A stretch of DNA of 19,295 nt from Amoebophrya sp. AT5.2 (Eukaryota; Sar; Dinophyceae; Syndiniales; Amoebophryaceae). The notes below the pieces were generated by a model. That model ran no database searches. It was given only the letters and a program-made list of their open reading frames with translations, and was not told the origin of the DNA. Within the stretch, counting starts at the first letter, position 1. Each line of letters begins with the position of its first letter. Where the stretch lies: positions 1 to 19,295 of the forward strand of contig RXOD01004675.1 of NCBI GenBank assembly GCA_005223375.1. Direction: 5' to 3'. The translations under genes were made by a program, and so were the position numbers. Of the stretch, positions 1 through 18,480 are shown piece by piece.

Positions 1-2341
1 CCATCGCTGCGGAGCCGCGACTGACGGCACCGACAGCCGCGCCAACAGCGATACTGGCCGCGGTTGTCGTTCCCGTAATCGACTGCGACGAGCCAGTCGT
101 GGAGGTAGACTTGAATTCCTTGGAAAAATTATGCGGCGCAGAACTCAGAAGCTCCTTGGCCTGCTTCATCTCCTCGCGAAGCAGAGAGCGCGGGTCCGTG
201 GAGCTGCCTTGTTGGCCTTGCTGGTGCGGGTCTTGCGGGGAATGCTCGTCTAGAGGGAGCCCGAAATCCTCGTACGAATCGACACTGCCACCGCCGGCGC
301 CGGGCCTGTTGCATTGTTAAAAATCATGATCAGACACAGTCGTGGCGTACTCGTCCTAGCCGTGCCCTCGACGTGGTCATGAGACGATCACGTACAAAAG
401 GCGAAGAAAACGCGCGTGATACATGAACCACGTTTAACGTTTAAATATTTTCCTTGCTTTTACACAGTGAACGACGAAAGAAAAACCAAAGTGACCACAT
501 CTAGATGAAGGTTGTGTTGAGTGTGAGTCTGAGTACCTATTGTCTGCCCGGAAAGAGTACCCCCCGCGCGGTCCTCCGTCTTCCTCGTTCTCAACAAGCT
601 GGCCTCTCGCCTTGGCCGTCTTCCGGTCGGAGCCATTTTTCAACTGCTCCAACTTCGCGTTTATGATTTTGTCGCTCTCCATCTGCACCAGGCTCGGAGC
701 TGCTACTTGCGGAAATCTGGAGCTGCGCCGCTTTTCGTCCAGTATCGCATTTACTTTCGAAGCTCGCTCCTGCAAGATTTGCGACGCCCGCTGTAGCAAA
801 GCGGCCTCATCAACCACGCCAGCAGCACCAGCCCCTCCTCGTTGGTCGTTGACATTGTCCATCGCCAGCCCGACCCCCAGCCCCAACATCGGATCCCTGC
901 TAATCGCTAAGTTTCTCGACGCCGCGAGCTGTTCTAGCTCCGCGAGCCTCTGGCGCTGTCGCTCCGTGGCCTGGATCGCCGAGTAGTCCGGGTGCAGACG
1001 CGTTCGAAACGCGCCGAAGAACAGCGCCGCTTTCACTTGCGCCTTTTCCTCCTCCGACAAGACCAACTGGTCGATTAACGCACGCACGATCCGATTGTCA
1101 TCGGCGTGGAGGTCGCTTTCAGTTTCATTTCCAGGTCGTGCATCCACTGCGCGAAGAGCATCCCCCCGTGATGTCCTCTGCTCCGTGCGGGCGGGGGCCT
1201 GCTGCCGGCGTCCCCCGACACCTGATAGCTCCTGCCGGGTAGCACCTCCTGCCGCATATTGTCGGTCGCGTGCCGCCTGCAGGCGGCGCCGCTGCGCCGA
1301 GCGCGGGGCAAGCCCGTACCTCTCGCGTTCAAAGCCGGTCTCGTCGTATCGCAAGCGCGACAACCACTGGCCGGGGGCGTCCTCGTCCTCTTGTAGTTCT
1401 CCAGCACGACGGCTCGTCGACGTCGAGAGCGCGCGCTTCACGTGCTGGTCGAGAAGTCGCGTCGCCTGCAATTGCCACTCCAGATCCTCGGCTGCGGTAG
1501 TCGACAGCGTCATTTTTTTCTTCTGCGCGAGCGCCGCCGCGAGTTTCTCCTCCAACTCCCGGCTTCGCTTCTGTGTCGCCTGCAGCATGACAAGAAGCGC
1601 GGCGGGATCGTTGTCGTTCTGCTTCTGCGGGGGGACGGTAGTGAGAGCAACGCCAGTGGTCGGGGCCGTAATCATTCCATAATCTTCCGCAGGAGCACCA
1701 CCGATCGCAGAACCCCCTCGACCACCACCAGACGGAGACGACTGCTGCGAGGGGCGCGACGGTGTGACTGAGGGGGCGCTGGAAGCTGCACTCGTGGCGG
1801 AACTCCTCTCGGAGTTTCCTCGCGGCAAAAGACCACTTTTCGTGAACATCTCCTTCAGGTCCACGACGGCCGGACTTTCGCCTTGCACCTCGGCCCCGGT
1901 TCCGCTCGCAAACAAGTCCGGCGCTGCCTCGCCTTCGGCCCTAAGCCTCACCAGCTTTGGCTTTCCGTTTCCGAGGTTTCCGCTTTCCCCCGGCGCGGGC
2001 CTGCCGCCTGCTTCCTCCTTCATCATGTTCGCCATCTTCTTCGCATTGTAGTCTGCCAAGGCTCTCTGCGCCAAGGCGGCCATTTCGTCGTCCACAATGA
2101 AGACAGTGCTATCATTGGGCTCCTCCAGCTCCTCGGGAACGGCTGCGCTGGCGCGCACCGTGCGCTTATTTACCTTCCCGTAACGGAGCACCTCGGCGAT
2201 ATCTTCCGCCGATGGCCCGGCGCTTGCGCTCGTTGCTTGAGCTAGAGTGGGCGTTTCGGAAAGAGCGGGACTAAACACGTTGCTGCGAAGGTGCAGCTGT
2301 GCATCCGTGCCTGGATCGGCTGAAGCCCGCGAAGGCCTCAT
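1..2341 (-). CDS. Unrecognised coiled-coil/disordered protein, two exons, 3' end beyond window
   Basis: I do not recognise this protein and suggest no function. Exon 1 runs 2341-537. A stop (TGA) lies in frame two codons before the ATG at 2341, which supports that start. The frame appears to leave exon 1 at a GT donor (AATAG|GTACTC, intron 536-306, 231 nt) and to enter at CAACAG|GCCC, exon 2 at 305-1. Both sides have the same phase (AG|G, Arg602), and exon 2 is open to the edge in that frame. Ignoring the intron gives a 635-residue ORF ending at 434 with an unconvincing tail. Visible parts: an Asp/Glu-containing N-terminal region with a conserved-looking stretch around DDEMAALAQRALADYNAKKM, a Ser/Pro/Gly-rich linker at about 175-220, and Glu/Lys/Gln-rich probable coiled coils at about 250-290 and 440-590. 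Exon 2 adds an acidic/Gln-rich stretch and an Ala/Gly-rich segment near the edge. Coding status is likely; exact splice sites are inferred. Confidence 0.7.
306..536 (-). other. Inferred GT-AG spliceosomal intron
   Basis: On the minus strand the segment starts GTACTC after ...AATAG and ends ...TTTTTAACAATGCAACAG before GCCCGG. It is lower in GC than both flanks and has stops in the used frame. Exon phases match across it. A TTTTTAAC stretch shortly before the acceptor could hold the branch point. The flanks CAATAGG and CAACAGG resemble each other, which is partly what consensus splice sites give. Confidence 0.6.
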
Positions 2342-2726
2342 ACATCAGATACGAGTGCCTGAAAGAATGCTGTGAACCTGAATTTGATCGAGGAGATCGA
2401 TTAGGTTGTACTTCTAGCTACTTAAGGCCGCTGCAGCTCTCCCGTCTGAACCTGAAGCCGATAACTTTGGAACTCACTATAAAACTTTTATTGTTCCGTG
2501 TCACTCACACTAAGTAATCTGATGTATCTCGTATGTTTCTGTTTTTCAGTCGACGATATGAGTTGGTGCTGCGCAGGGTAGTTCTTCTTGGGTTAAATCA
2601 TTTTCATCCGGGTAGCTCCAGTCTTTCCCTATCCGATACAAAGTGTTTGAAGAAGAAACTCGTCGCACTCGCAAGAGTAACACGGATTTTCATACGGTCG
2701 GTCAGCACTCGGATGCAACATACACG

Positions 2727-3002
2727 ATGCAGCGTACTACGTCCGCCTCCGCCTCCGCGATAGAAAGTCTAGTAGACGAAACCGACACCGAGGACTTGAA
2801 GAATACGGGCGGGGAACTTTCTACGACCACGAAAATGCATCAACGGCAGACGACACGAATGAAAACAGAAATTCCGTATCCGTCTGTCTTCGGTGACGAG
2901 AAGAACGATACGAGGAGGGCAACAGCTACACCAGCCTGGAGGCAGCTATTCCTACTCGACGACCTCCTCGGGGTCATCCTCAACCTGGTGTATGAACTAT
3001 GA
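2727..3002 (+). CDS. Possible small hypothetical protein (weak)
   Basis: This is an open frame of 91 codons from an ATG at 2727; an in-frame ATG at 2643 would give 119. It has a Thr/Ser/Asp-rich N-terminal half and a hydrophobic C-terminus (LLDDLLGVILNLVYEL). It lies in a long spacer, is lower in GC than the certain exons, and would be the only plus-strand gene in a cluster that is otherwise all minus. The minus strand here has stops in the frames I read. I have no recognisable domain and list it only because the frame is open and not a shadow of another gene. Confidence 0.22.
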   Translation: MQRTTSASASAIESLVDETDTEDLKNTGGELSTTTKMHQRQTTRMKTEIPYPSVFGDEKNDTRRATATPAWRQLFLLDDLLGVILNLVYEL

Positions 3003-3094
3003 ATATCTTTTTCTTTCGTTATTGTAGCTGTGTAGAAGTTCTTATGTAGCGGTAGCTAGTTCGAGTTCGTAGCAAACCACTTCGCTCGCAATCC

Positions 3095-3132
3095 AATGCG
3101 ATGCAAAACAAAAGTGTAATGTGATGCAAAAC
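3095..3132 (+). repeat. Short direct repeat, 23-bp period
   Basis: AATGCGATGCAAAAC at 3095 recurs as AATGTGATGCAAAAC at 3118. There are two copies only, and a weaker GTGATGAAC follows at about 3146. Confidence 0.4.
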
Positions 3133-3451
3133 CAACGTATGAACTGTGATGAACATGAAGGAGGGGGAAAACTTCTTAATTCCAGTGCAATGCCTAGGCG
3201 GGGTAAATAATTTGGAAAACTTTTATTCTAGCTACGTCTTCTACACGAACATGCAAAGCTGGCACTGACACTGCTATAATCAATCCGTATCCGACGACGC
3301 CTTTCTCTTCCCGAGGGCGTCAACGGCGATGTTAAATTCATTTGATTTCTCAAAAAAAAAAACTGCAACTTCTAGTACGTGCTGACAACGAGGAAATTGT
3401 TGCTACCTACAAACAAAACTACATACCTACGTGCATTTCTTTCTAGCTCTA

Positions 3452-5756
3452 CTACTTGTACACCCCAGCTGCTGCGACAAACTCCGACGACGAGGAGTGG
3501 TGGCCGTCGTGTTCCTCCTCGCCGGACGTGGTCGAGCCTGCCGTGTCCGTCGTACCGTCGAGTGCGGCTGCGTCCACCAGCTTTTTGTTGAACATGATCC
3601 TTTTCGCTGTCGAGTTGGCTTCCAGGTCTTTCTCGGTGTGGTCCTCCTTGTCCGTGCTGGCAAGTTTCTTGCTGTCCTCCTTGCTGGGGCTGGTGCTCGT
3701 GGCGGGCTGCCCCAACCCCATGGCGCGCGCGTACCCGTAAAGAGCGCAGCCGACGACCTAGTAGTCGACCGATGTGACATTTTTTTCTTTCCTTCGCTCC
3801 ATAGATTCAGACGCGTGGTCCAGAGTTTCGATTTCAATGAATCGCGCCGCTGACGCCCTGCTCATAGTTCCGACTTCTGGTTCTGCGCCATCCAGGAGCG
3901 TAGTTCGTTGTATCAATGCCTAGATCTGCATCAAGTCCCGCGACCCATTAAAAAACCACATCAAAAACATCTTCACCACGAGTGATACATAAATAAGACG
4001 AAATCGAAATAAATAGTTATCTGACTATACCTGCACCCCGAAGCCGGCGGCTTGTTTCGGCGAGACCGTGTCTCCGAAGAGCATGACTCCTGCCATGACG
4101 ATCAGCACGTCCTTGAGGATGCCCACGATGACGAAGGTGATCGCCGCGAAGGCGGTCATCATCAGGGCCGTGACCACGTTCAGCGCCACCGACGCGCAGC
4201 CGTTCCCCACCAGGTGTTTCCAGTTCGCGGCGAAGGCGGCGAGGATGGCTTGGTCCCACGTGAAGCACAGCGCGACGGAGAGCACCAGAAGGCAGCAGGG
4301 GGACACCAGCAGCAGAAACGAGAGCGGGTCCACGCGCTTCACGCCCCAGGAATTTCCGTTGGACGACAGCATCCCGTTCACCAGCACGATCCGCGCGCAC
4401 TCGAACAGTATGAAGCGATGGGAGTCCGATGGTAAGTAGCGAGATGAACTGGTATACTATAAGCTAAAGCTATGTGAGGTTTCCGCGGCCCTCACACGCC
4501 GCGCCGGTTTCAGAGCGGGGGCAGAAACGACACTGAACGGCGCAGAAGATGCCCCATTGATGCCCGGGACGGTTTCAGAGATGCCCGTTGTTTGTGGGAA
4601 GTAGGCGGGGCGGCAAGGGCAGGGAGATGAGCATGGGCGAGCCATTAGAAAGGCGGAGAGGGAAGTCAATGAAAGCCTAGCTAAGCCAATAGGAATAGCT
4701 AGAAGGGTGCTAGTGCTACAGCTCTTAGAGCTAGCTTCAGAAAGGGGGGCAAGGGTAGAAGACGAAGAGGGCGCCTCTTACGGTGGCCCTTTCATCTTGG
4801 CTGTCGGGTGTAAGGGTGCCAGTGGTCTACTATAGCCGAGGAAGGCCGCCTTTGCTCGTCCTGCAAACCCCTCCCAGGAGATTCATCGACGAGAAGGACC
4901 CTGACGAGCCCCCCCAAAATAAAAGTGATTATCACTATACCACTTGTCTACTAATACCACCTGGTCCCACCTCCTCCATAAACAGCTGCGAGCTGAACTG
5001 CACGACGAATCCCAGCAGCACGAAGTGCGCCTCGCCGGTGATGCTGAAGTAGCTGCCGACGAGCACCACGGCCAGGATGGCCAACAACTTCCCGGAAAAC
5101 TGTTCCAGCCCCGCGAGGAGGGAGCCTACGTAGACGATCCCCACGTTCATCTCCTTCATCATCTGGAGAAAGGGGATGCCCGCGTACTTGTACGCCACGT
5201 TGGAGAGTACCACCCCCAGCCCGAAGCAGAACGCCACCGGGAGGAGGAAGACCGCGTATTCTCGGAGGGGGACGCCGTTGCGCAGCGCCTGCACGGTGGT
5301 GAAGCTCTTGGGGATAACTGAGTAGGTGCCCACGGAGAACACCGTGCAGAAGAGCATGTGCCACCAGGTGAGCGCAATGGCGTACGGAAAGGGACCGTGA
5401 ATAAGAAACTTGTTGTAGGAAATGAGACCGGCCGAAGTGCCGATCATTGAACAGCAAGCGACGGTGGTCCAGAAAATCGGGTAGGCGGCCACGCGCTGCT
5501 GCAGCCAGGAACCGCCGTCGTCGACAACTGGCGAGGGATTTGTGATGGGGGTGGCGGTGCCGGTGGCTCCTCCTCGCGCTGCAGACGTTTTATTGGCGCT
5601 GGCTAGTTGCGCCGTCCGCTCGCGGGCCCCTGTCAGACCCACGACACTGGACGCGGTGGTCGAAGAGAGGTTGCCATCCTGATCCGATCCCTGTCCCCCC
5701 GACGTCGTGTACCGCGTCGGGTTGCCGCGAAGGAGCGGCCTCCGCTCGACCTCCAT
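3452..5756 (-). CDS. Triose-phosphate/nucleotide-sugar-type transporter (TPT family, DMT superfamily), three exons
   Basis: The predicted carrier has 484 residues. Exons are 5756-4981, 4403-4031 and 3757-3452. A stop lies in frame upstream of the ATG at 5756. Residues 1-90 are a polar, probably disordered N-terminus. About ten hydrophobic segments follow from residue 94. Family signatures seen: SYNKFLI and FPYAIALTWWHMLF (113-136), GIPFLQMMKEMNVGIVYV (193-210), GEAHFVLLGFVVQ then LFECARIVL across the first junction, DPLSFLLLVSPC (284-295), and KDVLIVMAGVMLFGDTVSPKQAAGFGVQVVGCALYGYARA across the second. TPT carriers exchange phosphorylated or nucleotide sugars, usually in plastid, Golgi or ER membranes; substrate and membrane cannot be read here. 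The C-terminal 90 residues are hydrophilic and charged. Intron 1 is an introner-like element; intron 2 is ordinary GT-AG. The family call is firm, the substrate is not known. Confidence 0.88.
3758..4030 (-). other. GT-AG intron 2 of the transporter gene
   Basis: The minus strand reads GGGGTGCAG|GTATAGTC ... GACTACTAG|GTCGTCGGC. Removing 273 nt joins GFGVQ to VVGCALYGYARA, the expected last membrane segment of TPT carriers. It is AT-rich relative to the exons and is an ordinary spliceosomal intron in the same gene as a non-canonical one. Confidence 0.85.
4409..4980. mobile_element. Introner-like element, copy 1 (non-canonical intron 1 of the transporter gene)
   Basis: The 572-bp segment interrupts the transporter reading frame. 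It is flanked by an exact 5-bp direct repeat, AACAG at 4404-4408 and 4981-4985 (CTGTT on the coding strand). Its two ends are imperfect inverted repeats of about 30 bp: plus-strand start TATGAAGCGATGGGAGTCC then GATGGTAAGTAG, and minus-strand start TATGGAGGAGGTGGGACC then AGGTGGTATTAG. Excision leaving one CTGTT gives CAG CTG TTC GAG (QLFE), the sequence expected for the family. No placement within the direct repeat gives GT-AG ends. It encodes no convincing protein, so any mobility would be non-autonomous. It shares internal blocks with copy 2: a TTTCAGAGATGCC block at 4573-4585, AGATGAGC at 4625 and GCGAGCCATT at 4637. Confidence 0.8.
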
Positions 5757-7022
5757 CGCTCTATCTCCCGTTGGGTAGATGAGCTAGTAGTAGTAGAGCG
5801 AATATTAATTTACTATTGCATGACGCAGTGAAGTTCTTCGTAGGCTCAGAATCGTGTGACGCGTGGTGCTGCTGGCCGCAACATAGAGTGGATTGGTTGT
5901 ATAGGTCAAGCGAGGGGGATTACGTGAACAAGAAAAAAAATGCAAACCTCGCTCGGGGAGTACGAGTAGGGTGTGACTGTAGTTACTTTATGTGAGAAAG
6001 ATGATGTTGACGATCAGAGCAGCCGACTAGTGCGTGGTACTGCCACGTACCCATACGCGTTGATGCTGTTGCACATCAGCGTGACTGTGGCATGATACCG
6101 ACGGACTGACGAGCCACAACCGCGGAAACCGGCAGAACCGCCCCACGAAAATTGTCTAGTGCACGAGCAGGGGAAGCAGAAGAGAGGGAGCATTCAAGTC
6201 ACGAAGTACACAGAACCTGCCACGACGGAGGCTGACGAATGAGACGCACTTACTTGTTTCCTTCACGTCGACGAAGCATCAGCCGCACGCCCGAGAATCA
6301 CACACCTTTTCACCGATCACGCACACGTTCGTGGTCAGAACGACGACTGCGCGACGACAAAACGTAAGGCACAGCTGTTCGGGCGATACCGATGCAGCAT
6401 GCGCAAACGCAACCGTCGCACTACGAACGTAGTTTGTCACCAGTCGCAGTCACATTCTATGTATTCAGGTATTAATTCATAAAAGTATGTTGCTGCGGGC
6501 TTCTCTGTCTTTGACAAACAATGCGAGTAGCTGAGTAGAGGACCATCAAAATAGGGACCTCCTGCAGCTGAAAGGGAAAGAACCTCCAAAACTAAAATTT
6601 TCATTTGCAACTTAATATGGATGATGGCGTGAGTCGGCAAAAACAAAATCAAAAAACAAAATATAAATACCAGGCGGCGTGGAGCAAGATTTTATCAATA
6701 ACTTTAGTACTGTAGAAAAGTAAAAGGAGAGCTCGTGGCTTTGTTCTTGAACGCCAATGAATTGCGAGAATTCTGGCTCGGGCCCAGAACAAGATCATCA
6801 CCGATCGCTGTGATTATTCGCCCGCATTAAGCCTCCTCATCGTCATCGCCTCGATCGAAAGTCTGCTTCTCCTAGTCCCACCTGTGTTGTAGTTTGTTGC
6901 AGCTGCAATATTTTTAAGTGATAGCATTAGCGTACAAAGAAAGATGCAAGAATAAACTGCTCCTGTATCCAGCATGGAGCATTTTCTATGTGCGTATAGA
7001 TGACCTTCTTCTTCTTCTTTCT
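5757..7022. other. Spacer with no supported gene
   Basis: About 1.27 kb of mixed composition between the transporter start and the end of the 603-residue protein gene. It has a GTAG/TAG triplet run near 5785, an A-run near 5932 and a CTT-rich stretch near 7004-7022 just past the stop of the next gene. I found no conserved coding frame, tRNA-like fold or long repeat. Confidence 0.5.
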
Positions 7023-9775
7023 CTATTCCTCCGCCGGCGGAGCGCTATCCTCCTCTGCTGGTTTTTCTTCTTCTGCTGGTGCTGCCGGCGTTTCCTCTGC
7101 CGGCGTTTCCTCTGCCGGCGGTGGCGTCTCTTCCGCTGGCGGCGGTGCTTCTGCAGCGCTTGCTGGCGCTGCCGGTGTTTCTTCTGCTGGCGGCGCTGCT
7201 TCTGTTGCGCTGGCTGGCGCTGCCGGTGTTTCTTCTGCTGGCGGCGGTGCTTCTGCTGCGCTGGCTGGCGCTGCGGGCGTCTCCTCGGCCGGCGCTGGGG
7301 GTGTTTCTTCTGCCGCTGCCGCGCCCCCACCCCCCATGCTTTGGGGTGCTTCCGGTGGCGAGTAGCCCCCCCCACCTCCGTACGACGTGTCCGCGCCGGC
7401 GTCTTCCGCCTTACTTTCAAGTCCTTCGGCCCGGAAGTCCGCCTTCGCGTTCGGGTTCCGCGCGGACGCTTGCTTCACCCACTTTCTTAGAGCGATTGAA
7501 AAAACCCAGGTCCTCTTCGTGCTTCAGGTTTAGGCTATTAGCGGGGACTAGTTCCCGCTAATATCAGATGGCACCCATGGACCTGGCCATCATTCGATCA
7601 GCGGTAACTGGCTGAAGATACATTCATACTTAGAATAAAGTTCCATTCGGGCGCTGCACCTAATGGTTTTATTCCGAGGAAACCGACGCCAGTACTAGCC
7701 AGCCAGGCACTCGCTGGCGTCGTATGGCTGCAAAGTATAGACTGGAGCGAAAAGAGGAAGACCAGCATCGACGAAGTGGAACCATCGACACAGGGCGCCG
7801 CAGCCTTCTCGGTGGGGCATATCGGTCAGAACTCGGGCGATCCTAGTCTCGCTGAAGGGGAGAGCCAGCGAGCCAGGAGAACTCTCACCAAACCAGCAAA
7901 GGCAAACGCAAACCTATACAACCTAGTAAACCTGCTGGACCTAATCCTAAGTTGCCTAAGCCTGAGTTTATTCAACCGCTCTTAACTTTCCGCTCGAGTC
8001 CTTCGAGTACCCCACCGGGCCGTCGAAGCCTCCGGCGGAGCTCGGCGTGTCGTTCGCATTCTTCCCCCATTTCTTTTTTTCCACCTTGTTGTGCTGCTTA
8101 TTTGGCATCGGTATGTGCGATTCCGTCATCACCCCGCCCGTCATGAAGGTCTTCTTCCCGCCCAGCATGGACAGTTTGCGCACCGGCACCGGCGGCTTGT
8201 CCCCGGGGAACGCAGGCATCCCCCGGGCGCCGGTCGTGCCTGCGGGGGGGCCCCGCGGCGAGACGGGAGGGGAAGACTTCGATTTCTTTTCCACCCGGGG
8301 CTGCTCGACACTGGGACCCCGGTCGCGCAGCGCGTCGTTGGAAATGCGGTTCTCCACGGGCCCGTCGTTCCTCTGCATCGCCATCGCTCCACTCGCGCGC
8401 ACGCCGACGCTCGCTCCCCCTCCACCTCTCGGAGAGGCCCCCGCGCGAACTCCCGGCCCGGCCGCCAAGTTCGCCAAAGTGTCCATGTTCGACCCACCTC
8501 CCGTGCGCAGGTCCGGGCTGAAGTTGTGGAGCCCGCCGCCCAGGGCCGCTGGGCCCAGGCCCCCGCCGCCCAGCATCCCTCCTCCCGTCATCCCGGTATC
8601 GTCCTCCTCGACGAAGTCGGCGCCCGGACCTCCACCGACGGCTGCCGGCGACATCCAATTGTCGTTGTCCCCCGGACAGGCGAAGTTCCCCGGACCCGCC
8701 GGCTGCAGTTCTTGTCCACCTCCGTGATGTCCCTTCGAGGAGGAGCTTCCGGGGCCCGCAACCCCTGCCGCGCGGAACATGCTGCCGCCGCTCGAAACCG
8801 CCTGCTGCGTCGCGCCGGCCTTCAGCTCCGACTTCAGGCTCCCGATGCTGTTCTTCACGGCGGCGTCCAGGCCCGAGTCCTGCTTGTGCCGCTGCTCGAC
8901 CGCCAGCTTCGCCTCGTCCGCGAAGATCCGGCAATGCATCACACCCGGGTTCGTATGAAACCAAGGACCAGGAATGGTAAACCATATCGATGCTTGAATG
9001 ATCGATGAGCAAGTGCTGGTGGTAGTGGAGGTTCTTTTTGTCTTTGTTAGGTTTAGTGCCAGGCAATGGGAGGGGGTCCACTTGCCGAGGGCGGGTGCAG
9101 ATTGTTCTTAAGGCGCTCTAGAGATTCATTAGACCCGGCGCGAAGGCGGGATCTAGGGCGTTTTCAGAGATGCCGGACTGATCGACGGGGATTGGGGAGC
9201 GGCGTCCTCGCTTCAGATGAAGATGAGCCAGCGCGAGCCATTGTGAGGAACAAAAATAATAGGAAAGCGGTAGGAGGAAGCCACCGGCCAAATTGGTGAC
9301 ACGACCCGAAAGGAAAGCAAATAGCGGGCGCTTAGGGCGGCAATGGATTGGTTGTCAGCTAGGTACATAGCTTACCAACTGGTCCTCGGGCATAGTCTGC
9401 CGTGTAGTTCTCCCGTGCCACCCGGCTCGTCGCGGCTTTCGCGAGCGCGTAGTGCTGGTCTAAGATCGCGTGCAGTCGCGCGAGCCGGTAGAAATCGTTC
9501 TCCGTCATGCAGCGGACCAGGTTCTCGTGGCCCTTGTCCTGCTCCAGCCACCGCTGCAGCAGGTCCCCGATCTGACCCAGACGGCCGTTGATTTTCTGGA
9601 GGTAGCCCGCCTTGCGGGAGGTGGAGGAGAAGCCGCCCATGCCGAGACGGGTCACCTTCGTCTGCAGCTCGGAGAGAAGGCGGTCGTACTCGATGCAAAA
9701 ATGCTCGACCACATCAAACCCGTGCGCCGGCATCATGCCCGGGTTGGCGTGGTGGTGACGACGCATCGCTGACAT
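7023..9775 (-). CDS. Unrecognised protein with Gly/Pro-rich middle and Ala/Glu/Pro repeat tail, three exons
   Basis: The predicted protein has 603 residues; I do not recognise the family. Exons are 9775-9395, 8948-7980 and 7484-7023. Both introns are introner-like, and all three exons join in phase 0. Residues 1-127 are probably helical and globular (FDVVEHFCIEYDRLLSELQ, then RLARLHAILDQHYALAKAA). The first junction reads ENYTAD|PGVMHCRIFADEAKLAVEQRHKQ. Residues about 180-420 are Gly/Pro/Ser-rich and likely disordered. The second junction reads SSGKLR|KWVKQASARNP. Exon 3 has no ATG and stops in its frame shortly upstream, so it needs splicing; it ends in an Ala/Glu/Pro-rich tail (from about 508) with three 17-residue PAEETPAAPASAAEAPP-type units. 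An in-frame ATG at 9835 would add 20 residues, but the DNA just before 9775 is AT-rich like a leader. Without splicing this would be called as two or three separate ORFs. Confidence 0.72.
7141..7293 (-). repeat. 51-bp in-frame tandem repeat, three units, in exon 3
   Basis: Units start at 7141, 7192 and 7243 on the plus strand (GGCGGTGCTT, GGCGCTGCTT, GGCGGTGCTT), a period of exactly 51 bp or 17 codons. The third unit diverges at its end. Shorter GAAACGCCGGCAG-type partial units continue on the low-coordinate side. The period keeps the frame, so copy number can change without breaking the protein. Confidence 0.85.
7490..7979. mobile_element. Introner-like element, copy 3 (non-canonical intron 2 of the 603-residue protein gene)
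   Basis: The 490-bp segment is flanked by the exact 5-bp direct repeat TCTTA at 7485-7489 and 7980-7984 (TAAGA on the coding strand). The ends are inverted repeats: the plus-strand left end reads GCGATTGAAAAAACCCAGG (7492-7510) and the right end, read on minus, GCGGTTGAATAAACTCAGG (7979-7961), 16 of 19 bases identical. Excision leaving one TAAGA joins AAG TTA AGA to AAG TGG GTG, in frame with the Ala/Glu/Pro-rich exon. Neither end gives GT-AG. Terminal repeats differ from copies 1 and 2, so this is another family or a far-diverged one. It contains a 28-bp palindrome at 7536-7563. Confidence 0.75.
7536..7563. repeat. 28-bp near-perfect palindrome inside introner copy 3
   Basis: Arms TATTAGCGGGGACT and AGTTCCCGCTAATA pair at 13 of 14 positions with no loop; the one mismatch is G opposite T, a G-U pair in plus-strand RNA. 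It lies 52 nt inside the coding-strand 3' end of the intron. Confidence 0.8.
8954..9394. mobile_element. Introner-like element, copy 2 (non-canonical intron 1 of the 603-residue protein gene)
   Basis: The 441-bp segment has inverted ends: the left end on plus reads TATGAAACCAAGGACCAGG then AATGGTAAACC, and the right end on minus reads TATGCCCGAGGACCAG then TTGGTAAGC. Both share TATG, AGGACCAG and TGGTAA. The flanks GTTCG (8949-8953) and GTCTG (9395-9399) match at 3 of 5 bases, as expected for a decayed direct repeat. Excision joins GCA GAC to CCG GGT in phase. Internal blocks match copy 1: TTTCAGAGATGCC at 9162-9174, AGATGAGC at 9221 and GCGAGCCATT at 9233, the last two spaced 12 bp in both copies. 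No GT-AG pair suits these ends. Confidence 0.76.
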
Positions 9776-9990
9776 CTTAAATAAGTAGTAGTTGGATTGT
9801 TTTTTTCGCAGATGCTCCGGGCTCCGGGGGCTCAACAGCCGGAGCAGAGTGCGCGTGGCGGCGCACGCACAAGAGTGGTCAACATTTTCATTTTTTTCAA
9901 GCGCTTTCTTAGGCTGTAGCTATCTCGTTCTCGGGTATTAGTATATGTGTATCTATATTGGTGCTACTAGGCGACAGCAAATATAATCGA

Positions 9991-10014
9991 AATTCAAATT
10001 TTACGCGGTTGATG
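9991..10014 (+). repeat. Dispersed intergenic repeat, copy A
   Basis: AATTCAAATTTTACGCGG followed by TTGATG closely matches 16055-16079 (AATTCCAAAATTTACGCGG then TTGGTG). The shared core is TTTACGCGGTTG. Both copies are in spacers on the same strand. Confidence 0.4.
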
Positions 10015-10780
10015 TACACAGCTACGTCTCCGTCGTAGCAAAATGCTGAGAACCGAGATGACTATGAGTATCGTACGTTCGTAGTATCCAACCTCCCTAT
10101 CGCTATCGGCGATCGACTGCTTTGCTTTCCGGGAGGAAAACAAGAATCGGGAGGCGAAGCGGACCTACACCTGACCCTGGTGAGAAAGAGTAAGAGAAAG
10201 TATCAAGTATAAGAAAGAAGTGGGCTTGGATTTTTTGGATACTGCTGGACGTGTCATGGACCAGAGGTAAAACGAACGAGACCGAGTTCCTCGCAGTATC
10301 AACCGATTGCCATCACTGCTGTGCTTGCTTTACCGACACACTGTTCGAAGTTGTTTAGTTCTACGAAACCGAAAATAGAGTAGGACCACGACGACGACCA
10401 CAAGGACGAGTAGAGACGGGCCGGAGGTTTCTTAGTCCGTCACGATCACGAATACAGAAAACCAAAAGCAAACTAGACTAAACAAACAAGTTGAAGTTTT
10501 ACGTCTAAGTATCTATATATCCACGACCGACATCAAGAACCCTATTGCTGTCTACCTCGTCGGGATCGGAAGAACAAGTTGAAAGTGCCGAGCAACCTCG
10601 TCGCGGGGGACGGGTCGTCCATCATTCGCTCTCGACATATTTGCATGATCTTCATCTTCTGCTTCTGCTCTTCGATTTCATCTCGCTTTACATTACAACC
10701 CCCAATATGGAATAGCGAGCGCCTCCCTACAACTACAAGAATATCATATGGAGGTTTCTCTTTCTACTTGTGGGGGTGAT

Positions 10781-10804
10781 GTATGAGTATGTGTATGAGT
10801 ATGT
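10781..10804 (+). repeat. Exact 12-bp tandem duplication
   Basis: GTATGAGTATGT occurs twice without a gap, at 10781-10792 and 10793-10804, in the 3' flank of the 543-residue protein gene. Confidence 0.6.
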
Positions 10805-10837
10805 AGTTCATGTTGGGTACTAACAAAAACAAACTAC

Positions 10838-10868
10838 CTAGTACTATCGGTACCAGCTAGTACTATCG
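10838..10868 (+). repeat. 12-bp direct repeat overlapping a stop codon
   Basis: CTAGTACTATCG occurs at 10838-10849 and 10857-10868, 7 bp apart. The second copy contains the complement of the TAG stop (10865-10863) of the 543-residue protein gene. Confidence 0.6.
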
Positions 10869-12494
10869 CGCGATGAAAGAAGACGATGTATCGTTATGTT
10901 TTGCGTGGTACCACGCCACGAGCTCTTTCGCGTTGGCTGGAAAGTCGTGCCCTGTCGGACTCAGCTCTTCAATCTGAGAAATGTAGTCCCTACGTCTGGC
11001 AATCACCTCCCGTATGATCGAGGAGGCCTTCGCTTTAGAAATATTAGACTTCTCTTTCTCGCGCTCGCCTATTTCTCTCTTCTCTTCTGAAGGTCCTGCT
11101 TCTGGCGCTGTCAGCACTGTCGCTGGAAGATCTCTGTGATGTCCCTCGATATTGTTCTCTTCTGCTTCTGGAGCTGGAGCGGTGTTAAAATGCGACCCGG
11201 CGCCGGCAGGTGCCGGCTCTGGCGGTCGGAAAAAAACAAGAACCTCGTCCACCTCTCCAACCGGGCAAAGATCAGGCGTAAGATCTGCTGAAGAAAATCC
11301 GGCTCCCTGTCCTCGCGGAAACCCAGATCCATAGGAATCGCCGGGCACCGCGATGAGGGACAGAGAAGCTTCCGTTGGCATGTTGTCGTCGCTCCTGCAA
11401 AGAGCAGACAAAGAGAGAGTCGCGCCGTTTCTTGGTGATGTGCCCTCGAGGACTTGCTTAGGAAGCTCCTCCTCCGCAAAACTCCAACCGCCCGGCGGCA
11501 GCTGTGCGGGCGCAGCCGACGCGTGAGACATGCCCCCACCCCCCGCGGCCGCGACGAGGAAATCGAGGCGCGATTGGGCTTCTGCTTGCTGTTTTTCCAG
11601 GAAGCTGCCAATTTCCCGCCCCAACCGCGCCTTTATCGCCGCCATGGCCTCTTCCTTAGTTTTCGGGTTCTTGTTGTGCGGCAGGGCTCGTGCGTTGCGA
11701 ACGAAAACCCGCCCGCCCCCACCCTGCTCCTCCGACTCTCGCCCCGCGGCCCCACCAGCAACTACTACCACCCCTCCCGGCAACGCCATTTTTCGCTCCT
11801 TCTTCGGCAACACGAACCTCTGGCGGTCTTTTAGCGGATTCATCGGCCTCCGCGCCGCTTTTGCGTCCGCCTCCATCCGGGGGAGCACCGCCGGCGACCC
11901 GTCTTCGGTCAACAACATCGGGTCGGAACCATCAGCGGGATAAGCCGGCGCCTCCGCGTAGTGCGTGGGAAACTCTTCTCCCGCCATCGCGATCGTTGTT
12001 TGCAGGGTCCGTACGTCCCCCAAAATCTCGGCGAAGAACTTCGCGTTGCGCTCCAGGACCTTCACCGCGGCGATCTTCTTCACGGTGAACGTCTTGTTCA
12101 GGGACTCCAGCTCTTCCTCCGTCGAGGCGTAGACTCGCTCCGGAATTGTACTGATCACCGTGTTTTGCTGTCGCGACCTTCTGGGGATCAGCTTGCTGTT
12201 CTTTAGTCCTGGGTGGGATTTTTTGCTGATGTCGTTGGTGTCGCCCGGCGCGCCCCGAATGTCCCAGAGGCGGTAGCGCACGCCGGGTTTGCTCTCACTA
12301 CTTCCCACGACGACAAGCTCCGGAGATGCAGCGCCGCGATACAGGTAGGGGTCACCGTAAGGGTCGTCGACGACGTCGGAGACTTCTTTCGGCGGAGGAA
12401 GGCCGGCGAGCTCCTCTCGAGAGATGAACTCGTTCAAGGCACCCTCACCGAGAGAAGACTCGGAAGCGAAAGATCTTCTGCGATCCCCGGTCAT
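10863..12494 (-). CDS. Unrecognised 543-residue protein, single exon
   Basis: This is a long GC-rich frame. TAG lies in frame one codon before the ATG at 12494, which fixes that start. I do not recognise a domain. The N-terminal third (about 20-180) looks most ordered, with DDPYGDPYLYRGAASPELVVVG, GVRYRLWDIRG, and a helical part ASTEEELESLNKTFTVKKIAAVKVLERNAKFFAEI. The middle is basic with a Gly/Val-rich linker, then KTKEEAMAAIKARLGREIGSFLEKQQAEAQSRLDFLVAAA, a probable helix at about 280-320. The rest is low in order with Pro/Ala/Glu stretches, ending in a charged helical segment (EKREIGEREKEKSNISKAKASSIIREVIARRRDYISQIEEL). There is no signal peptide or membrane segment. The antisense frames are shorter shadows. 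It is certainly a coding candidate; its function is unknown. Confidence 0.75.
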   Translation of the reverse strand: MTGDRRRSFASESSLGEGALNEFISREELAGLPPPKEVSDVVDDPYGDPYLYRGAASPELVVVGSSESKPGVRYRLWDIRGAPGDTNDISKKSHPGLKNSKLIPRRSRQQNTVISTIPERVYASTEEELESLNKTFTVKKIAAVKVLERNAKFFAEILGDVRTLQTTIAMAGEEFPTHYAEAPAYPADGSDPMLLTEDGSPAVLPRMEADAKAARRPMNPLKDRQRFVLPKKERKMALPGGVVVVAGGAAGRESEEQGGGGRVFVRNARALPHNKNPKTKEEAMAAIKARLGREIGSFLEKQQAEAQSRLDFLVAAAGGGGMSHASAAPAQLPPGGWSFAEEELPKQVLEGTSPRNGATLSLSALCRSDDNMPTEASLSLIAVPGDSYGSGFPRGQGAGFSSADLTPDLCPVGEVDEVLVFFRPPEPAPAGAGSHFNTAPAPEAEENNIEGHHRDLPATVLTAPEAGPSEEKREIGEREKEKSNISKAKASSIIREVIARRRDYISQIEELSPTGHDFPANAKELVAWYHAKHNDTSSSFIAR

Positions 12495-13481
12495 CTTCTA
12501 CTTCTCATTTGTATTTTTATGCATACTTACTTACTTACATGCACTTATTGCATGAACTCGAACGCGGACCGCCGCGAGCCCATCTGTGGATGATCCTCAT
12601 TGCGTTTGCGTTCAGCCATGAAGACGTCACGGAGACGTCCCCTCGCCGAACTCTATGTATGATCTTGATCCAACGATCTACTAGCTGCAGGTCTTTATCA
12701 GCGATTTTCTCAGGTTGGCAATGGAATGATCAACATCTGCAATATCGGTACTGGGCGGGAGGTGAAAAGAAACCAGCACTGTCCTGCACCTGTTGCGGCG
12801 GAGCGCGAGCGTTACACCAGGTGGTCAACATTGAGGTGATTGTACATCAAATCAACAGCACAAACGCGTAGCACCGTTGAGTTCCACCGAGGACGAAAGG
12901 AGACGACGATTTCATTTGAGTTTGACTCATCCACGCCATCCATCTGACAACGTTGATCTGTGCTACACGACGACGAACATACAAGCACGACGAAGACCGA
13001 CTCTTCAACAAAACAACCACAGATCAAACTCTCTTCCAAGACGAAGCAGGGCAATGACCGAAAAGAATGTGGACCAGGACACTGACGCAGAAACAAGAAA
13101 GCTGCGGTCGTACGGTACGAACCAAAGTAAAAAGTGGTGTGTTCCAGTTGTGATGTCCTTCTGACAAGACGAGCGAAGAAGTGACGTTTTTCATTTTGAT
13201 GGAAGCGACTTTTTCGGGTTCTTCACGGCCCGCGGCAAAAGCGCGACAGCTTCTGCTCGTTTCATATTTTTCTCCTTGTTGATGCAACACACTAAAACTA
13301 AAAGCAAGATGACGAGCACGACATCTGGAGCACGACATCTGGTACGCTGTTGCTACCATCGAGAGCAACAGCAAGCTCGTCGTAGTGGTAGTCGTTCCAT
13401 ACCTAGTATATTTCTATTTGCTATTGCCTATTGGTGCAGCGTGATGAAGGTGCGCGTTAGAGTTAGTCTTTCAGTGCTATT
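12495..13481. other. Spacer with no supported gene
   Basis: About 1 kb between the 543-residue protein gene and the end of the Arp3-like gene. Open frames on both strands at about 12812-13374 are short, rich in Arg/Ser/Thr, overlap each other, and show no domain. A short TTAC repeat (CTTACTTACTTAC) sits at 12526-12538. Confidence 0.5.
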
Positions 13482-15782
13482 CTATCCCCTACTAGCGGCT
13501 CTCCTGTCTTGTTCGAAACTAACTAACTGGTTAACTTTAGGAAGCCATAGAACTGCTTTTTTTTTCTGCTCCGTTTGCTGCAGTTCCTTCCATTTTCGTG
13601 CTTCTTGTCTCCAGTTCTTTTTCCCTGTTTCGTTCGCAGTTTTCGCCACCACCTCGTTCAATATCTTCTCGCGAAATCCTCCCAGTAGGTTCAAATGCCC
13701 CCTCCCAAACACTCTATCCAGCGCGGCCCGGCTTCCACCCTCCGCTCGGTACATGTCGCGCGTGATTCGCGTCGCCTCGTAGGCTTGCCGCGAGTGCGTC
13801 GCGAACAGGCTGCCCCCGTACCACGCGGCGTTTTTGCGCGCCCGCTGGCTGCCCCCGAAGTCGTTGCAGAACACCCGCATTTTGTTCGCGGAGGTGGTCA
13901 TTTTTTCGCGGACTTTGGTTGCCACCGGTCGGAGCTGCCATCGCTTCTCCAGCTCGGATCGGAGGCGCTCGCCGAAGAACAGGATCTGGCTGCTGCCGCC
14001 GCAGAGGATGACGTTGCCGTACAGGGAGCGGCGGTAATCGATGGGGCACGCCTCGATGATCTCGGACACGCAGTCGACGAGATTGCGCTTGCTCGTGGTG
14101 AGATCGCGCCGCCGCGGGTACAGCTGCGGCTGGAAGAAGATCTCGGGAGCGAGGAAGCGCTCGGGACCCATCTCGCACTGGAAGGCCCGGTTGCCGCGGC
14201 CGCCGGCGGTGCTCTTGATCTTCGACTGAGGATGCTGAAGGGGTTGATGATCTAGATGCCGATGCTGATGCTGATGATGTTGCTGGTGTGAAGATGCGGA
14301 GGTAGTTCTCTGGCGCTTCCTGTCTGGGGACTTCGCTGCCTGATCATCGTCTTCGCGCTCACCCGCATCGAAAGTGGAATTTGTCATTGTAGGGGGATCG
14401 ATATGGATATGTTGATCCACAACTTCCATTGCACATGGTGCATCCCCATAAAAATTCTCGTTGTTCGTGATCCTACTACTACCCCGAGCCGGCCTTTTCC
14501 TGCTCCCGGCTGCTTTGGTAGGCGAGGAAGTGGAAGTGCTGCCGCTCTTTTCGCTTCCGATATTTCCCGCGACCACTCCCACGAACGAAGTTGTAGACGT
14601 ACTAGAGGACGGCACAGATAAAGTTGAAGTTGCCAACGAAGCCTTCGCCACCTCTTTCTCGTACGTTGCTGCGGGCGGGAAGTAGCGCGCGAATTCCGTG
14701 GCCAGGTCCTTCGCCAAGTAGCAACCCGTGGCCTTGATCTTGTCCACGGCGTCCGCACGCACTTCCGGCGCGAGCGGTTCCTTCCGCTCCACCAGCGCGT
14801 CCAGGATGAAATCACTCACGTGCGCGCCGCCGACGGGCAGAATTTCCGAGGTGGTGTACAGCGGATAGCCCTCCACCACGGGGATCACGCGCGTGCAGCG
14901 GTAGCCGACGTCAATCACCAGCGCCGTCGAGCAGTTGTAGTGCGGATTCGTGCTTATGGCTGCACTCGATGAAGAACTGCTCTTCATCTGCTCAGACGCC
15001 ATCTTCCGATCGAGGTTCTCCAGGCGACGCGCGATGTCCTCGGCGGTGACCGGCTCGAAACGAGCCGGGCGGCCCGACGAAGTACTTCTAGCACGATCTT
15101 GTTCATCTACTTCTACTGCAGTGTCGTTCCTCTTGCAAGTCCTTCCCGCCATTTTTTCCACCGCCAGATTCGCCCTGATCCCCTGCGCGCAGCCGGCTGC
15201 GTAGACCGCCAGCACCGGGGCCGGCACGAAGGCCACCGCGGCGAAGCCGAGCACCTCCATTAGCACTTCCAGCGTGGTCGTTTTGAACTCCTTCGTGAAG
15301 AAGGGTCCCGGGTCCACGACCAGAATCTCGGTCTTCTCCGGGCTCGCGCGCAGGTAGTTAAACACCGCCTGGTGCCAGAACCGTTCCATCGCGTCCCAGT
15401 CCGCGACGCCGGCCGCATGCACGGGGTGCGCCATGTGCCAGTTGGGGGAGTTGCGGAACGACGTCTGTGCGTTCACGCCAACGTCGAAGTTCAGCTCGTT
15501 GTGCACCGCGGACTGGGTGACTCCGGCGCGCGTCTGGGAAGCCACTTGGCGGTGCGTGGCCACGCAGGTCGGGAGGGTGTACAGCGGCTCGCGGTTGCCG
15601 GCCCAACCAAACCGGGTCACGTGGCTGCCAATGTCGAAAACACAGGTGTTGATGGGGAGCTGCGGCCTGCTTGGACCAGTGGTGTTGGGGCCGTCTCCGT
15701 CGGCGGGCGGGGGCGAGGCAATATAGGCGCGGCCGCGAATTTGCGGAGCGTCATACACGGTTGGATCATCGTTTCGAGACAT
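13482..15782 (-). CDS. ARP3: Arp3-like actin-related protein with large insertions
   Basis: The protein has 766 residues in one exon, against about 420 for typical Arp3. A stop lies in frame upstream of the ATG at 15782. Actin-fold landmarks in order: VFDIGSHVTRFGWAG (48-62, first phosphate loop), the Arp3-like AGNREPLYTLPTCVAT (61-76), VADWDAMERFWHQAVFNYLRASPE (127-149), STALVIDVGYRCTRVIPVVEGYPL (285-308), ERFLAPEIFFQP (541-552), CPIDYRRSLYGNVILCGGSSQILFFGERL (579-607) and AAWYGGSLFAT (652-662). GNxEPxYxxPTxVA, DWDxMERF and CPIDxRRxLY point to Arp3 rather than actin, Arp1 or Arp2. Insertions occupy about 201-283 and 380-535, the latter Ser/Thr- and then His/Gln-rich, and about 80 residues extend the C-terminus. 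The second phosphate loop reads DVGY where DSGD is usual, so ATP binding may be altered. Arp3 with Arp2 nucleates branched actin; whether this one does is unknown. Confidence 0.85.
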   Translation of the reverse strand: MSRNDDPTVYDAPQIRGRAYIASPPPADGDGPNTTGPSRPQLPINTCVFDIGSHVTRFGWAGNREPLYTLPTCVATHRQVASQTRAGVTQSAVHNELNFDVGVNAQTSFRNSPNWHMAHPVHAAGVADWDAMERFWHQAVFNYLRASPEKTEILVVDPGPFFTKEFKTTTLEVLMEVLGFAAVAFVPAPVLAVYAAGCAQGIRANLAVEKMAGRTCKRNDTAVEVDEQDRARSTSSGRPARFEPVTAEDIARRLENLDRKMASEQMKSSSSSSAAISTNPHYNCSTALVIDVGYRCTRVIPVVEGYPLYTTSEILPVGGAHVSDFILDALVERKEPLAPEVRADAVDKIKATGCYLAKDLATEFARYFPPAATYEKEVAKASLATSTLSVPSSSTSTTSFVGVVAGNIGSEKSGSTSTSSPTKAAGSRKRPARGSSRITNNENFYGDAPCAMEVVDQHIHIDPPTMTNSTFDAGEREDDDQAAKSPDRKRQRTTSASSHQQHHQHQHRHLDHQPLQHPQSKIKSTAGGRGNRAFQCEMGPERFLAPEIFFQPQLYPRRRDLTTSKRNLVDCVSEIIEACPIDYRRSLYGNVILCGGSSQILFFGERLRSELEKRWQLRPVATKVREKMTTSANKMRVFCNDFGGSQRARKNAAWYGGSLFATHSRQAYEATRITRDMYRAEGGSRAALDRVFGRGHLNLLGGFREKILNEVVAKTANETGKKNWRQEARKWKELQQTEQKKKAVLWLPKVNQLVSFEQDRRAASRG

Positions 15783-16054
15783 GTTTGCTGGCTTTACCTG
15801 GCGCTATGAGCGGGCCGTACTGATTGTGCGCGACACCAACCAACCGACGTATGCGTGACACTTTTGTCTTTTGAGGTGATAAGACGATGATGTGCGTGGT
15901 GCGGCATGCAAGATGCGTACTTGCGGCCCACCTTTGATGGTGTGTAAAACGTGACTCGCTTGGTCATATCTTTGAAGCGTAAACGAGTTGGCTTCTTTGC
16001 GTGGTCGGGATGGCTGATGGGTTTCGAAACCATTCCCAGAGTCGCAAAATTCTG

Positions 16055-16079
16055 AATTCCAAAATTTACGCGGTTGGTG
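16055..16079 (+). repeat. Dispersed intergenic repeat, copy B
   Basis: This is the match to 9991-10014, sharing AATTC, an A/T run and TTTACGCGGTTG, then RTG. It lies about 90 bp before the large repeat array. Confidence 0.4.
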
Positions 16080-16170
16080 CCAGGCAGAGTGACACTGTAA
16101 CTGCAGGAAGGAAGACTGATCAAACGAGAGCTGGCAAAAACCAGCACTTAACTTTTAAAGCATTACACGC

Positions 16171-16930
16171 GAAACCGCATCACAAGCACTCAAACGCCAT
16201 ATCATACTACCCGCTGCGTTGAACCCAGATCCCTAAACCCTTTTAAAGCGCTACATGTGAAACCATATCACAAACACGCAGAACAAGCCGCTACTATCCG
16301 TTGCTTGGAATTCGTTCAAGGCACCACATACGAAACCGTATCACAGACTCCGAAACAGAATTACCATCAGCTACTTTGACCCCACTTGCGCAGGGGTCAC
16401 ATGGGAAACCACATCACAGAATCCCAGACGCCACTCACTGGCGCAACGTGCTCTGCATCAAGTTCTCCAAGCATCACATGTGAAACCATATCACAAACAC
16501 CCAAATGCCACTACAGCGCTACATGTGAAACCATATCACAGACACCCAAACACCACTACAGCGCCACATATGAAACCGTATCACAGACACCCAAACGCCA
16601 CTACAGCGCCACATGTGAAACCGGATCACAGACACCCAAACACCACTACAGCGCCACATATGAAACCATATCACAGACACCCAAACGCCACTACAGCGCC
16701 ACATGTGAAACCGGATCACAGATTCCCACCTATCAGTTGTTTTGAGTTCATTTTCCGAAGCGTTTTACTGAAACCGTATCACATACCCTCAACCGCTACT
16801 ACTTTCCACTATGCTAAGCCTAGCTGTCCGAGCATCACATGTCGAACCGTATCACAGACATCCAAGCGCCCATGCTGTCCGCTGCTTTGTGATCGTTTCA
16901 AGGCGTCACGACATGTGAAACCACATCACA
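16171..16930 (+). repeat. Thirteen-copy motif array with 73-bp flanks and a homogenised 45-bp core
   Basis: The core GAAACCRTATCACA and close variants start at 16171, 16259, 16332, 16405, 16482, 16527, 16572, 16617, 16662, 16707, 16770, 16844 and 16917. Spacing is 88, 73, 73, 77, then 45 five times, then 63, 74, 73. The longer units carry an extra piece of about 28 bp with a loosely kept GTTCAAGGC-like segment before the core. In the 45-bp block, units alternate ACATGTGAAACC and ACATATGAAACC and also ACACC and ACGCC, giving a 90-bp dimer. Many copies show dyad symmetry, TGTGA-N7-TCACA. Confidence 0.9.
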
Positions 16931-16950
16931 AGCATGCGAACCTGTTGATT

Positions 16951-17015
16951 GCAAAATTTAAATTTTAAAAAATTTTAATATTTAATTTTTTATTTTTTAT
17001 TTTTTGAATTTTGTT
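16951..17015. other. AT-only tract
   Basis: About 65 bp of almost pure A/T with runs of TTTTTTA, between the motif array and the 20-bp repeats. It could be a low-complexity spacer, an easily melted site or a retroposed A-tail remnant; I cannot tell which. Confidence 0.6.
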
Positions 17016-17020
17016 TCTTC

Positions 17021-17080
17021 CAGCGTGTATCAGGCTGTGCCAGCGTGTGTCAAGCTGTGCCAGCGTGTGCCAGGGTGTGG
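17021..17080 (+). repeat. Three tandem 20-bp units
   Basis: Units at 17021, 17041 and 17061 read CAGCGTGTATCAGGCTGTGC, CAGCGTGTGTCAAGCTGTGC and CAGCGTGTGCCAGGGTGTGG. Each unit holds two half-units of the type CAGSSTGTG. Confidence 0.85.
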
Positions 17081-17632
17081 TCTTGGCGTGCTTGAGCCGC
17101 TCTTCTCTACGCATTCAAATTCAATTTAAATGAATTTTGCTGCAGCAGGCTTCTTCTGCTGGGCGAAGTCGAAGATACATCTATCGGCGGTTGCTGAGAA
17201 TGTATGAGAAGCAGACCGCTGGAAGAGTACATCGGTCATCAAGGTTTTTGCGCGATCATCATGCCGCGTTGGATTTGGAAAAACCAGCACTATGATGCTT
17301 CAAATTTCCATATCCATTTGATGTTTGTCGTGCGTTTATAATCTCACTGAAAAATCCATCGGTCTTTCATTTGCCGTAATGCGACAGCGAGAGCGACAGA
17401 CAGTCACGGAGAAACAATTAGCGGCCGCTTACCGGATTTGCGGTGCAAGCAATAAACATCCCGTCTAGATCTTTTCGCTTTCCCCGCGCCACGCCCCGCA
17501 TCTTCCTTAGATTTCAAGAATATCTGTTTCTGATCTTTGATCATGCTTTCCACCTCATCTTCCTCATTCCACACCCGCCGACTTCATCGTCAACTTCATC
17601 TCGCATTTCTATAATGGATCCCGTATTCAGGG

Positions 17633-18480
17633 TCACGCTGCCGCTTCCGCCGTCGCAAGCTTGTTGCGGACAGCGATCGCGAGATTCTGGTTCACACGCT
17701 CAGGATTCGGAGACAGGAAAAAAGAAATCTGCTCGTTAAGCTGCGGCAGCTCCTTGCAATCCTTGGCACGGAACGTCAAGCGCTGCTCTTCATCCTCGGT
17801 TCCATCCGGCTGAATGACGCCCCCCTCCTTCTCGTCGACGCGTACAACGCGGCCCTCCCGCTGTCATTCCATTGATTTTTATTTCAAGAAGTAGCAGCAT
17901 TTATTTCCATGTTAACCACGATGAACCTAAATAAAAAAAAGCTAGAAAAACGTGAACGACGTTCTTTTTTTATATTTCTTTCCACATGTACGTGTACCTT
18001 CGCATCCCACAGCATGTGGTTCGCAAATCTCGTGACGTGTTGCTTGGCTGCCTGCGATTCGCGGAAGGCCTTCTGGGTCTCGAAGTCCTTGACCCGTCCT
18101 TCCCCCGCTTCCTTGCGCTCTTGCAGCGCCTCTTTGCTGAACTTCTTGCTGCCCGTACCGCCTTGGACGTTTAACGCCGTCGGCTTTCCCGTCTTCTCAT
18201 CCTGCGACTCCTCGAAGGTGACCTCATCTCCCATGCGCACCCAGCGACCCTCGCACTGGGACATCCGGAAATGCACCAGCGCGTTGCCTTCCTTGATGTC
18301 GCGACCCTGCACCCGAATGAAGCCATAGCGCCTCTCGTCGATGCGCGAGACGAAGCCCGAAATGGTAGCAAACGACCGGAGGTGCGAAGCGGTGCTGAAC
18401 GGGCGGGGGGCCCGCAGGACGGACGAGCCCGCCCCACTGCACGACCGCTGGGCAGGAGACAAAAGTGCGCGGCTGAACAT
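17633..18480 (-). CDS. Probable mitochondrial protein with two cold-shock-like domains, two exons
   Basis: The predicted protein has 236 residues. Exon 1 is 18480-17998 (161 codons) and exon 2 is 17860-17633 (75 codons plus stop). The intron starts AAG|GTACAC and ends GACAG|CGG, phase 0. The N-terminus (1-39) is rich in Arg/Ser/Ala without acidic residues and contains RPFST, typical of a mitochondrial presequence. Domain 1 (40-108) is a cold-shock fold: SGFVSRIDERRYGFIRV matches the RNP1 strand and NALVHF the RNP2 strand, followed by GDEVTFEESQDEKTGKPTALNVQG. A charged helical linker follows (112-160). Exon 2 gives a more divergent repeat of the fold: GRVVRVDEKEGGVIQPDG, LTFRAKDC, LNEQISFFL and NLAIAVRN. 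Cold-shock domains bind single-stranded RNA or DNA, so an organellar RNA role is likely but inferred. Reading through the intron gives a 198-residue ORF with an implausible Phe/Arg-rich tail. An in-frame stop upstream supports the start. Confidence 0.82.
17861..17997 (-). other. GT-AG intron of the cold-shock-domain gene
   Basis: The 137-nt segment reads GTACACGTACATG ... CAATGGAATGACAG on the minus strand. It is AT-rich and carries a long A/T stretch. Removing it joins MLWDAK to REGRVVRVDEKEGG in frame. Confidence 0.8.

Follow-up and report, generated by a model that had tools for sequence, protein, structure and literature searches.

Introners with inverted ends and short duplications are known from Syndiniales, as the first-pass annotation of the locus described here had stated. 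For Amoebophrya A25 and A120, the passages of Farhat et al. 2021 (PMC7789003) that treat such introners describe direct repeats of 3-5 nt, inverted repeats of 8-20 nt and borders that are mostly not GT-AG. The same passages give RNA-seq support for introns of this build. In the case of A120, the inverted ends start with TAT. U1 was not detected in that study (PMC7789003). How Amoebophrya introns without GT-AG are recognized is posed in that part of the paper as an open question.

Regarding the direction of insertion, a review (PMC10228655) states in its section on this subject that, according to Huff et al. 2016, introners of Micromonas and Aureococcus insert in both orientations. The method of Gozashti et al. 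2022, as described in the sections concerned, allows for opposite-orientation insertion (PMC9860276), and for Micromonas the relevant passages of another report give sense orientation only (PMC3879977). The passages of PMC7789003 that mention orientation or antisense concern genes, not elements. Insertion in both directions has thus been described for other introners; a family inserting both ways without GT-AG borders was not found in the literature searched.

Here, we compare these systems with an insert in a transporter gene of Amoebophrya sp. AT5.2. The insert lies in what we call the window, i.e. the whole stretch of 19,295 nt that was analysed (NCBI GenBank assembly GCA_005223375.1, contig RXOD01004675.1, positions 1 to 19,295 of the forward strand). 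With a probability of roughly 0.8, the insert belongs to a family of non-autonomous, MITE-like elements that acts as an introner of the Amoebophrya type and would be removed at the RNA level as a non-canonical intron.

Like the introners of A25 and A120, the family combines inverted ends, short direct repeats at the exon borders, non-GT-AG borders, a predicted end-to-end hairpin and the lack of an internal transposase gene. The TAT start of the inverted ends is common to the A120 introners and the window family. Unlike the A25 and A120 introners as far as the passages of PMC7789003 describe them, the window family has a duplication of 5 bp, ends of ~45 nt instead of 8-20 nt and copies of 229-576 bp, and its orientation was counted. 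With the GT-AG introners of many eukaryotes it shares the DNA-transposon-like spread and the duplications and inverted ends that the sections on these features report for part of those families (PMC9860276). Whereas these introners rely on GT-AG or close variants of it, which in part stem from the target site, the window family is without GT-AG at the precise border. Similarities also exist to the non-conventional introns of euglenids and diplonemids, whose borders are non-canonical and vary, whose ends are joined by a secondary structure, and whose removal mechanism is given as unknown in the parts of PMC6221363 and PMC4770533 that deal with it. In contrast to the introns of this unrelated lineage, as described there, the window copies form one family with a coherent terminal sequence and exact duplications.

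The kind of element is already known from Amoebophrya; what is added here is this family and its orientation-independence without GT-AG. As coherent ends, exact duplications and both orientations come together in one family, with two opposed copies in one gene, the question of recognition becomes directly testable. Precise removal of copies in both orientations would mean that the process is not guided by directional splice signals within the element.

The insert in the transporter gene and its family

On the gene strand (minus), the window element reads CTGTT-TATGGAGGAGGTGGGACCAGGTGGTA...CATCGCTTCATA-CTGTT. The first-pass annotation had noted AACAG flanks on both sides and matching inverted ends beginning with TATG, and both observations are borne out. 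The flanks are exact copies, both ends read TATG inwards, and the ends are inverted over ~45 nt with small gaps; for the transcript strand, 39 pairs are predicted to form between the first and the last 60 nt. Excision of 4409-4980 together with one AACAG gives ...VQFSSQLFECARIV..., which is ungapped at this place in a ten-row alignment including nine homologues. At the protein level, the junction QFSSQLFECARIV shows zero gaps in any of the nine aligned homologues, so that the clean restoration of a TPT-family segment upon removal, which had also been noted, is confirmed. The cut that had been proposed, 4404-4980, holds as a valid precise removal, but it is not unique, being one of six equivalent cuts. 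In the joined protein, the Pfam domain TPT (PF03151) spans the junction with an E-value of 3.5e-07 and 30.3 bits, at a cut-off of 30. Leaving aside the gene's own unspliced reading, the closest homologues among the matches listed are a EukProt protein with 60% identity and a protein of Amoebophrya sp. A120 with 50%. For this gene and one other element-bearing gene, the best named homologues among the matches listed are from Amoebophrya sp. A120, with 50% and 59% identity, respectively, which would fit a Syndiniales host. The features of the window, together with the interrupted genes that were compared with solved proteins, are given in Table 1.

Table 1. Features of the window (window positions) and element-bearing genes at other loci of the assembly (locus only)
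Feature	Position or locus	Strand	Description
Introner-like element	4409..4980	-	572 bp, TATG...CATA ends, exact 5-bp duplication; interrupts the transporter gene
Target-site duplication AACAG, copy 1	4404..4408	.	CTGTT on the gene strand; read from the sequence; repeated exactly at the opposite end
Target-site duplication AACAG, copy 2	4981..4985	.	Read from the sequence
Terminal inverted repeat, left	4409..4453	+	Forms the 3' end of the insert as read on the gene strand; approximate length; predicted to pair with the opposite end
Terminal inverted repeat, right	4936..4980	-	Forms the 5' end of the insert as read on the gene strand; has the CCAGGTGGTA family motif; approximate length
TPT-family transporter, exon 1 (coding)	4986..5756	-	Open frame; putative start codon at 5756
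Transporter, exon 2 (coding)	4031..4403	-	Open frame; aligned with nine homologues
Putative ordinary GT-AG intron, same transporter gene	3758..4030	-	CAG/GTATAG ... CTACTAG/GTC; joined protein aligned across
Transporter, exon 3 (coding)	3452..3757	-	Open frame; alignment with homologues
Second, diverged family copy in another gene	8954..9394	-	TATG...CATA ends, partial body similarity, stem between the ends
ERCC-6-type helicase	L042		Ungapped junction against solved protein
Cystathionine beta-lyase	L062		Ungapped junction against solved protein
MAP kinase 6	L075		Ungapped junction against solved protein; found at a looser cut-off, none at the strict cut-off
DNA polymerase epsilon	L029		Ungapped junction against solved protein
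Aminotransferase	L069		Ungapped junction against solved protein

The assembly that was searched for further copies is the window's own genome (50.7 Mb in 2759 contigs). A DNA search with the whole window element returned four relatives. When up to three mismatches were allowed, the terminal motif CCAGGTGGTAAGTAGNCAAGTGGTAAGT gave 177 matches, against 0 for the reversed control pattern. The terminal sequences thus recur elsewhere in the genome instead of occurring only at this locus. Of these 177 matches 100 were listed, and stretches around at least 70 of the listed ones were looked at (30 loci and 40 stretches); a copy was defined by TATG...CATA ends and an exact 5-bp duplication. In this way, 41 distinct copies of 229-576 bp were counted, the window copy included; they were chosen for their exact duplications, and the duplicated 5-mers have no fixed sequence. 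In detail, the loci L006-L075 contain 77 distinct motif sites, 41 of them inside these copies. Three further sites show a 5/5 duplication (two of these duplicate counted copies) and six show 4/5; the remaining ones comprise 15 without a partner end, one with a cut flank and 11 that agree at no more than 3/5 or have no recognisable terminus.

To this census a scan of TATG/CATA pairs can be added, from which four duplicate loci were left out. In the loci examined, 43 pairs had an exact 5-bp duplication and a duplex energy of -20 or lower, and 41 of these are the family copies, whereas each of four controls with displaced 5-mers gave 0 pairs. Body similarity ties the window element to the 40 other copies. 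The 41 bodies form one similarity group. Among their 820 possible pairs there are 677 that match, and the relative strand is consistent in 674 of the matching pairs.

Several matches of the terminal motif sit within a few hundred bases of contig ends. The assembly therefore seems to break inside elements, and the true copy number may exceed the count. In viral contigs the motif was not found, in a search that may leave out records close to the window's own genome.

Terminal inverted repeats, a target duplication of fixed length, a short body (229-576 bp) and many copies are all features of MITEs, and the 41 copies with inverted ends and exact 5-bp duplications agree with the DNA-transposon-like insertion that had been suggested from the window alone. 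The same structure would be expected of ordinary transposon insertions that break genes and are never removed. Of the readings weighed here we give this one the least credence. The median nearest-neighbour identity between copies is 0.81, so many of them are not recent, and yet their ends and the flanking frames have been kept; moreover, the gene of DNA polymerase epsilon is among those interrupted.

Coding frames across the precise junctions

Most copies of the family are located in coding exons. When the element is taken out together with one 5-mer, a single open coding frame is regained. To test this, codon scores were trained on four long open frames from the window, the transporter's own first exon being one of them; they show one frame coding on both sides after precise removal in 37 of the 41 copies. 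With joins shifted by +1 or +2 bases, same-frame coding was seen in 1/41 and 3/41, respectively. Random sites passed the same test in 161 of 400 cases within the loci and in 185 of 400 within the window, and the difference between the precise joins (37/41) and the random sites of the loci is significant (Fisher P 4e-10).

Conservation at the protein level was also considered. When 20 joined proteins were scanned with Pfam, domain matches spanned the junction in 11 and stopped short of it in two, and seven had none. In addition, five proteins picked as looking conserved were aligned to solved structures, and the alignment is ungapped over the junction in all five (Table 1).

In the case of the lyase, a gene model that is apparently of this genome (P0012, EukProt g5174.t1) covers 57% of the query, with 100% identity in this part. 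This model begins 3' (downstream) of the insert and does not span it. Because it breaks off at the insert, such elements may distort gene annotation, as judged from this one element-bearing gene model. Among the protein matches listed for two element-bearing genes, none was a transcript of this species. A separate observation in the same lyase gene is an apparent further family end on the minus strand near position 2005 of its locus, with CCAAA for the usual CCATA, just before the conserved GNPTR motif.

Splice borders, orientation and the predicted stem

GT-AG was found among the six equivalent precise borders in 0/41 copies, the borders being deduced from the duplications. The duplicated site itself is therefore best read as the border, in agreement with the first-pass annotation, with one near-miss GT-AG alternative in the window copy. 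This alternative runs on the minus strand from a GT at 4970 to an AG at 4400 and would add two residues only (QLFMEECARIV). It belongs to a different explanation, in which the elements would be canonical spliceosomal introners. Their donor would be a GT of the inverted end, within the conserved GGTAAGT or within GTGGGA, and their acceptor an AG of the exon or close to the opposite end, so that the protein would gain or lose a few residues. GT-AG introners with duplications and inverted ends do occur elsewhere, according to the sections of PMC9860276 on such families. In the present family, GGTAAG[TC] lies within the first 45 nt of 36/41 copies, and some in-frame open GT-AG option exists in 37/41, four of these being without net length change. 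However, AG is found within the last 30 nt in 5/41 copies only, and no fixed AG position is common to more than 47% of the copies of one orientation. Furthermore, GT-AG pairs near the ends number 869, 903 and 832 for length changes of 0, 1 and 2 modulo 3, thus showing no frame-keeping excess, and the five conserved proteins are gapless at the precise junction. Judged by position, frame and conservation, canonical GT-AG removal of the family is unlikely, though it may apply to the window copy with its near-miss.

As to orientation relative to the host gene, the copies divide into 26 and 15, which is no departure from an even split (binomial P 0.12). The gene strand was taken as the strand with the best codon score, and orientation consequently rests on these scores; at one locus (L004) the score is only 1.2 and the strand is not trustworthy. 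Two slightly different ends, of the AAGTGGTAAGT and AACTGGTAAGT types, swap sides between the orientation groups in the consensus. This is an independent sign that the orientation call is right. Genes with a conserved junction are present in both groups: those of the helicase, the lyase, the aminotransferase and the TPT transporter belong to one, those of the MAP kinase and of polymerase epsilon to the other. Moreover, one glycosidase-like gene (L046) holds two copies in opposite orientations. Both lie in stretches that match PF02836, the second with 20.0 bits, just below the cut-off of 21.

Exact borders and two orientations could also arise at the level of DNA. The internal eliminated sequences of ciliates are removed by programmed DNA excision, and removal of this type, with the assembled DNA as the uncut form, would likewise give exact, signal-poor borders at a short duplication as well as independence of orientation. 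We regard this as very improbable, because Amoebophrya introns of the same build are part of the assembled genome, and RNA-seq supports that they are introns, as reported in the intron passages of PMC7789003.

Returning to removal as a non-canonical intron, both the absence of a precise GT-AG and the occurrence of both orientations indicate that recognition most likely takes place via the palindromic ends or the stem, and not via a directional donor and acceptor borne by the element. In the sequence of events that we take to be the most likely one, the host gene would be transcribed with the element still inside, and the two inverted ends of ~45 nt would then pair into a stem. With the two copies of the 5-mer brought next to each other by this stem, the host would join the exons within the duplicated 5-mer, irrespective of the orientation of the element. 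As a tentative extension, which we hold to be rather doubtful, the family would represent an orientation-blind class of introns. In such introns, the union of the 5-mers by the stem would make GT-AG and any directional spliceosomal signal dispensable for joining, and the stem might possibly replace the contact of U1 with the donor. The predicted stem contains GGUAAGU paired with ACUUACC, and the latter presumably resembles the 5' end of U1.

In the minimum-energy folds of 40 of 41 copies, no fewer than 15 pairs link the first to the last 60 nt, and the mean duplex energy of the copy ends is -48.2, compared to -21.5 for shuffled ends. The arms of a given copy fit each other no better than they fit the arms of other copies (mean rank 0.457; above the mean in 18/41), and covariation consequently gives no evidence for a selected stem. 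The end-to-end stem may simply reflect transposon ends. A search for U1 did not find it; this is uninformative, because U2 was also missed although U6 was found. At gathering level, Rfam gave no match in the window.

Related elements and the search for a transposase

A second, more diverged copy of the family lies in another gene of the window (Table 1). Its flanking 5-mers, GTTCG and GTCTG, agree at three of five positions, and at its precise join a single frame is coding on either side, with scores of 18.0 and 17.3. Besides, the TATG scan revealed a second introner-like family beside a U6 gene (L076:2400-2808), with different inverted ends, TATGAACAGGAAATTTGTCC..., but with the same TATG termini and 5-bp duplication. 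When the assembly was searched with this element, 66 match rows were obtained, in some cases more than one for the same place. Exact duplications were present in all four loci examined (L076, L081, L082 and L083). In the codon test, the joins are coding on both sides at two of these loci and weak on one side at the other two.

A more general search for inverted repeats with duplications of 4-8 bp showed no clear excess over the control, with real/control counts of 30/34, 8/13, 6/6, 2/0 and 0/0. This search says little, because a perfect 7-mer near the end was required and 0/41 of the known copies were recovered.

Across the three Pfam families tried, no partner transposase carrying the family ends was found. 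The MULE search gave no match while its positive control matched, and the piggyBac-type search gave no match, but its control was also silent. The rve search gave 14 matches, and the two loci checked were both without family ends. These rve matches (assembly contigs C399, C1391, C2156, C1935, C736 and nine more) lie in long open frames of 506-2820 aa and are probably retroelements.

Finally, the window also contains two regions of direct repeats. Positions 7105-7318 hold imperfect direct repeats of 51 bp, situated in a minus-strand open frame with a high content of Ala, Pro and Glu. At 16150-16950, a direct-repeat array with units of 45 bp and longer contains GAAACCATATCACA-like units.
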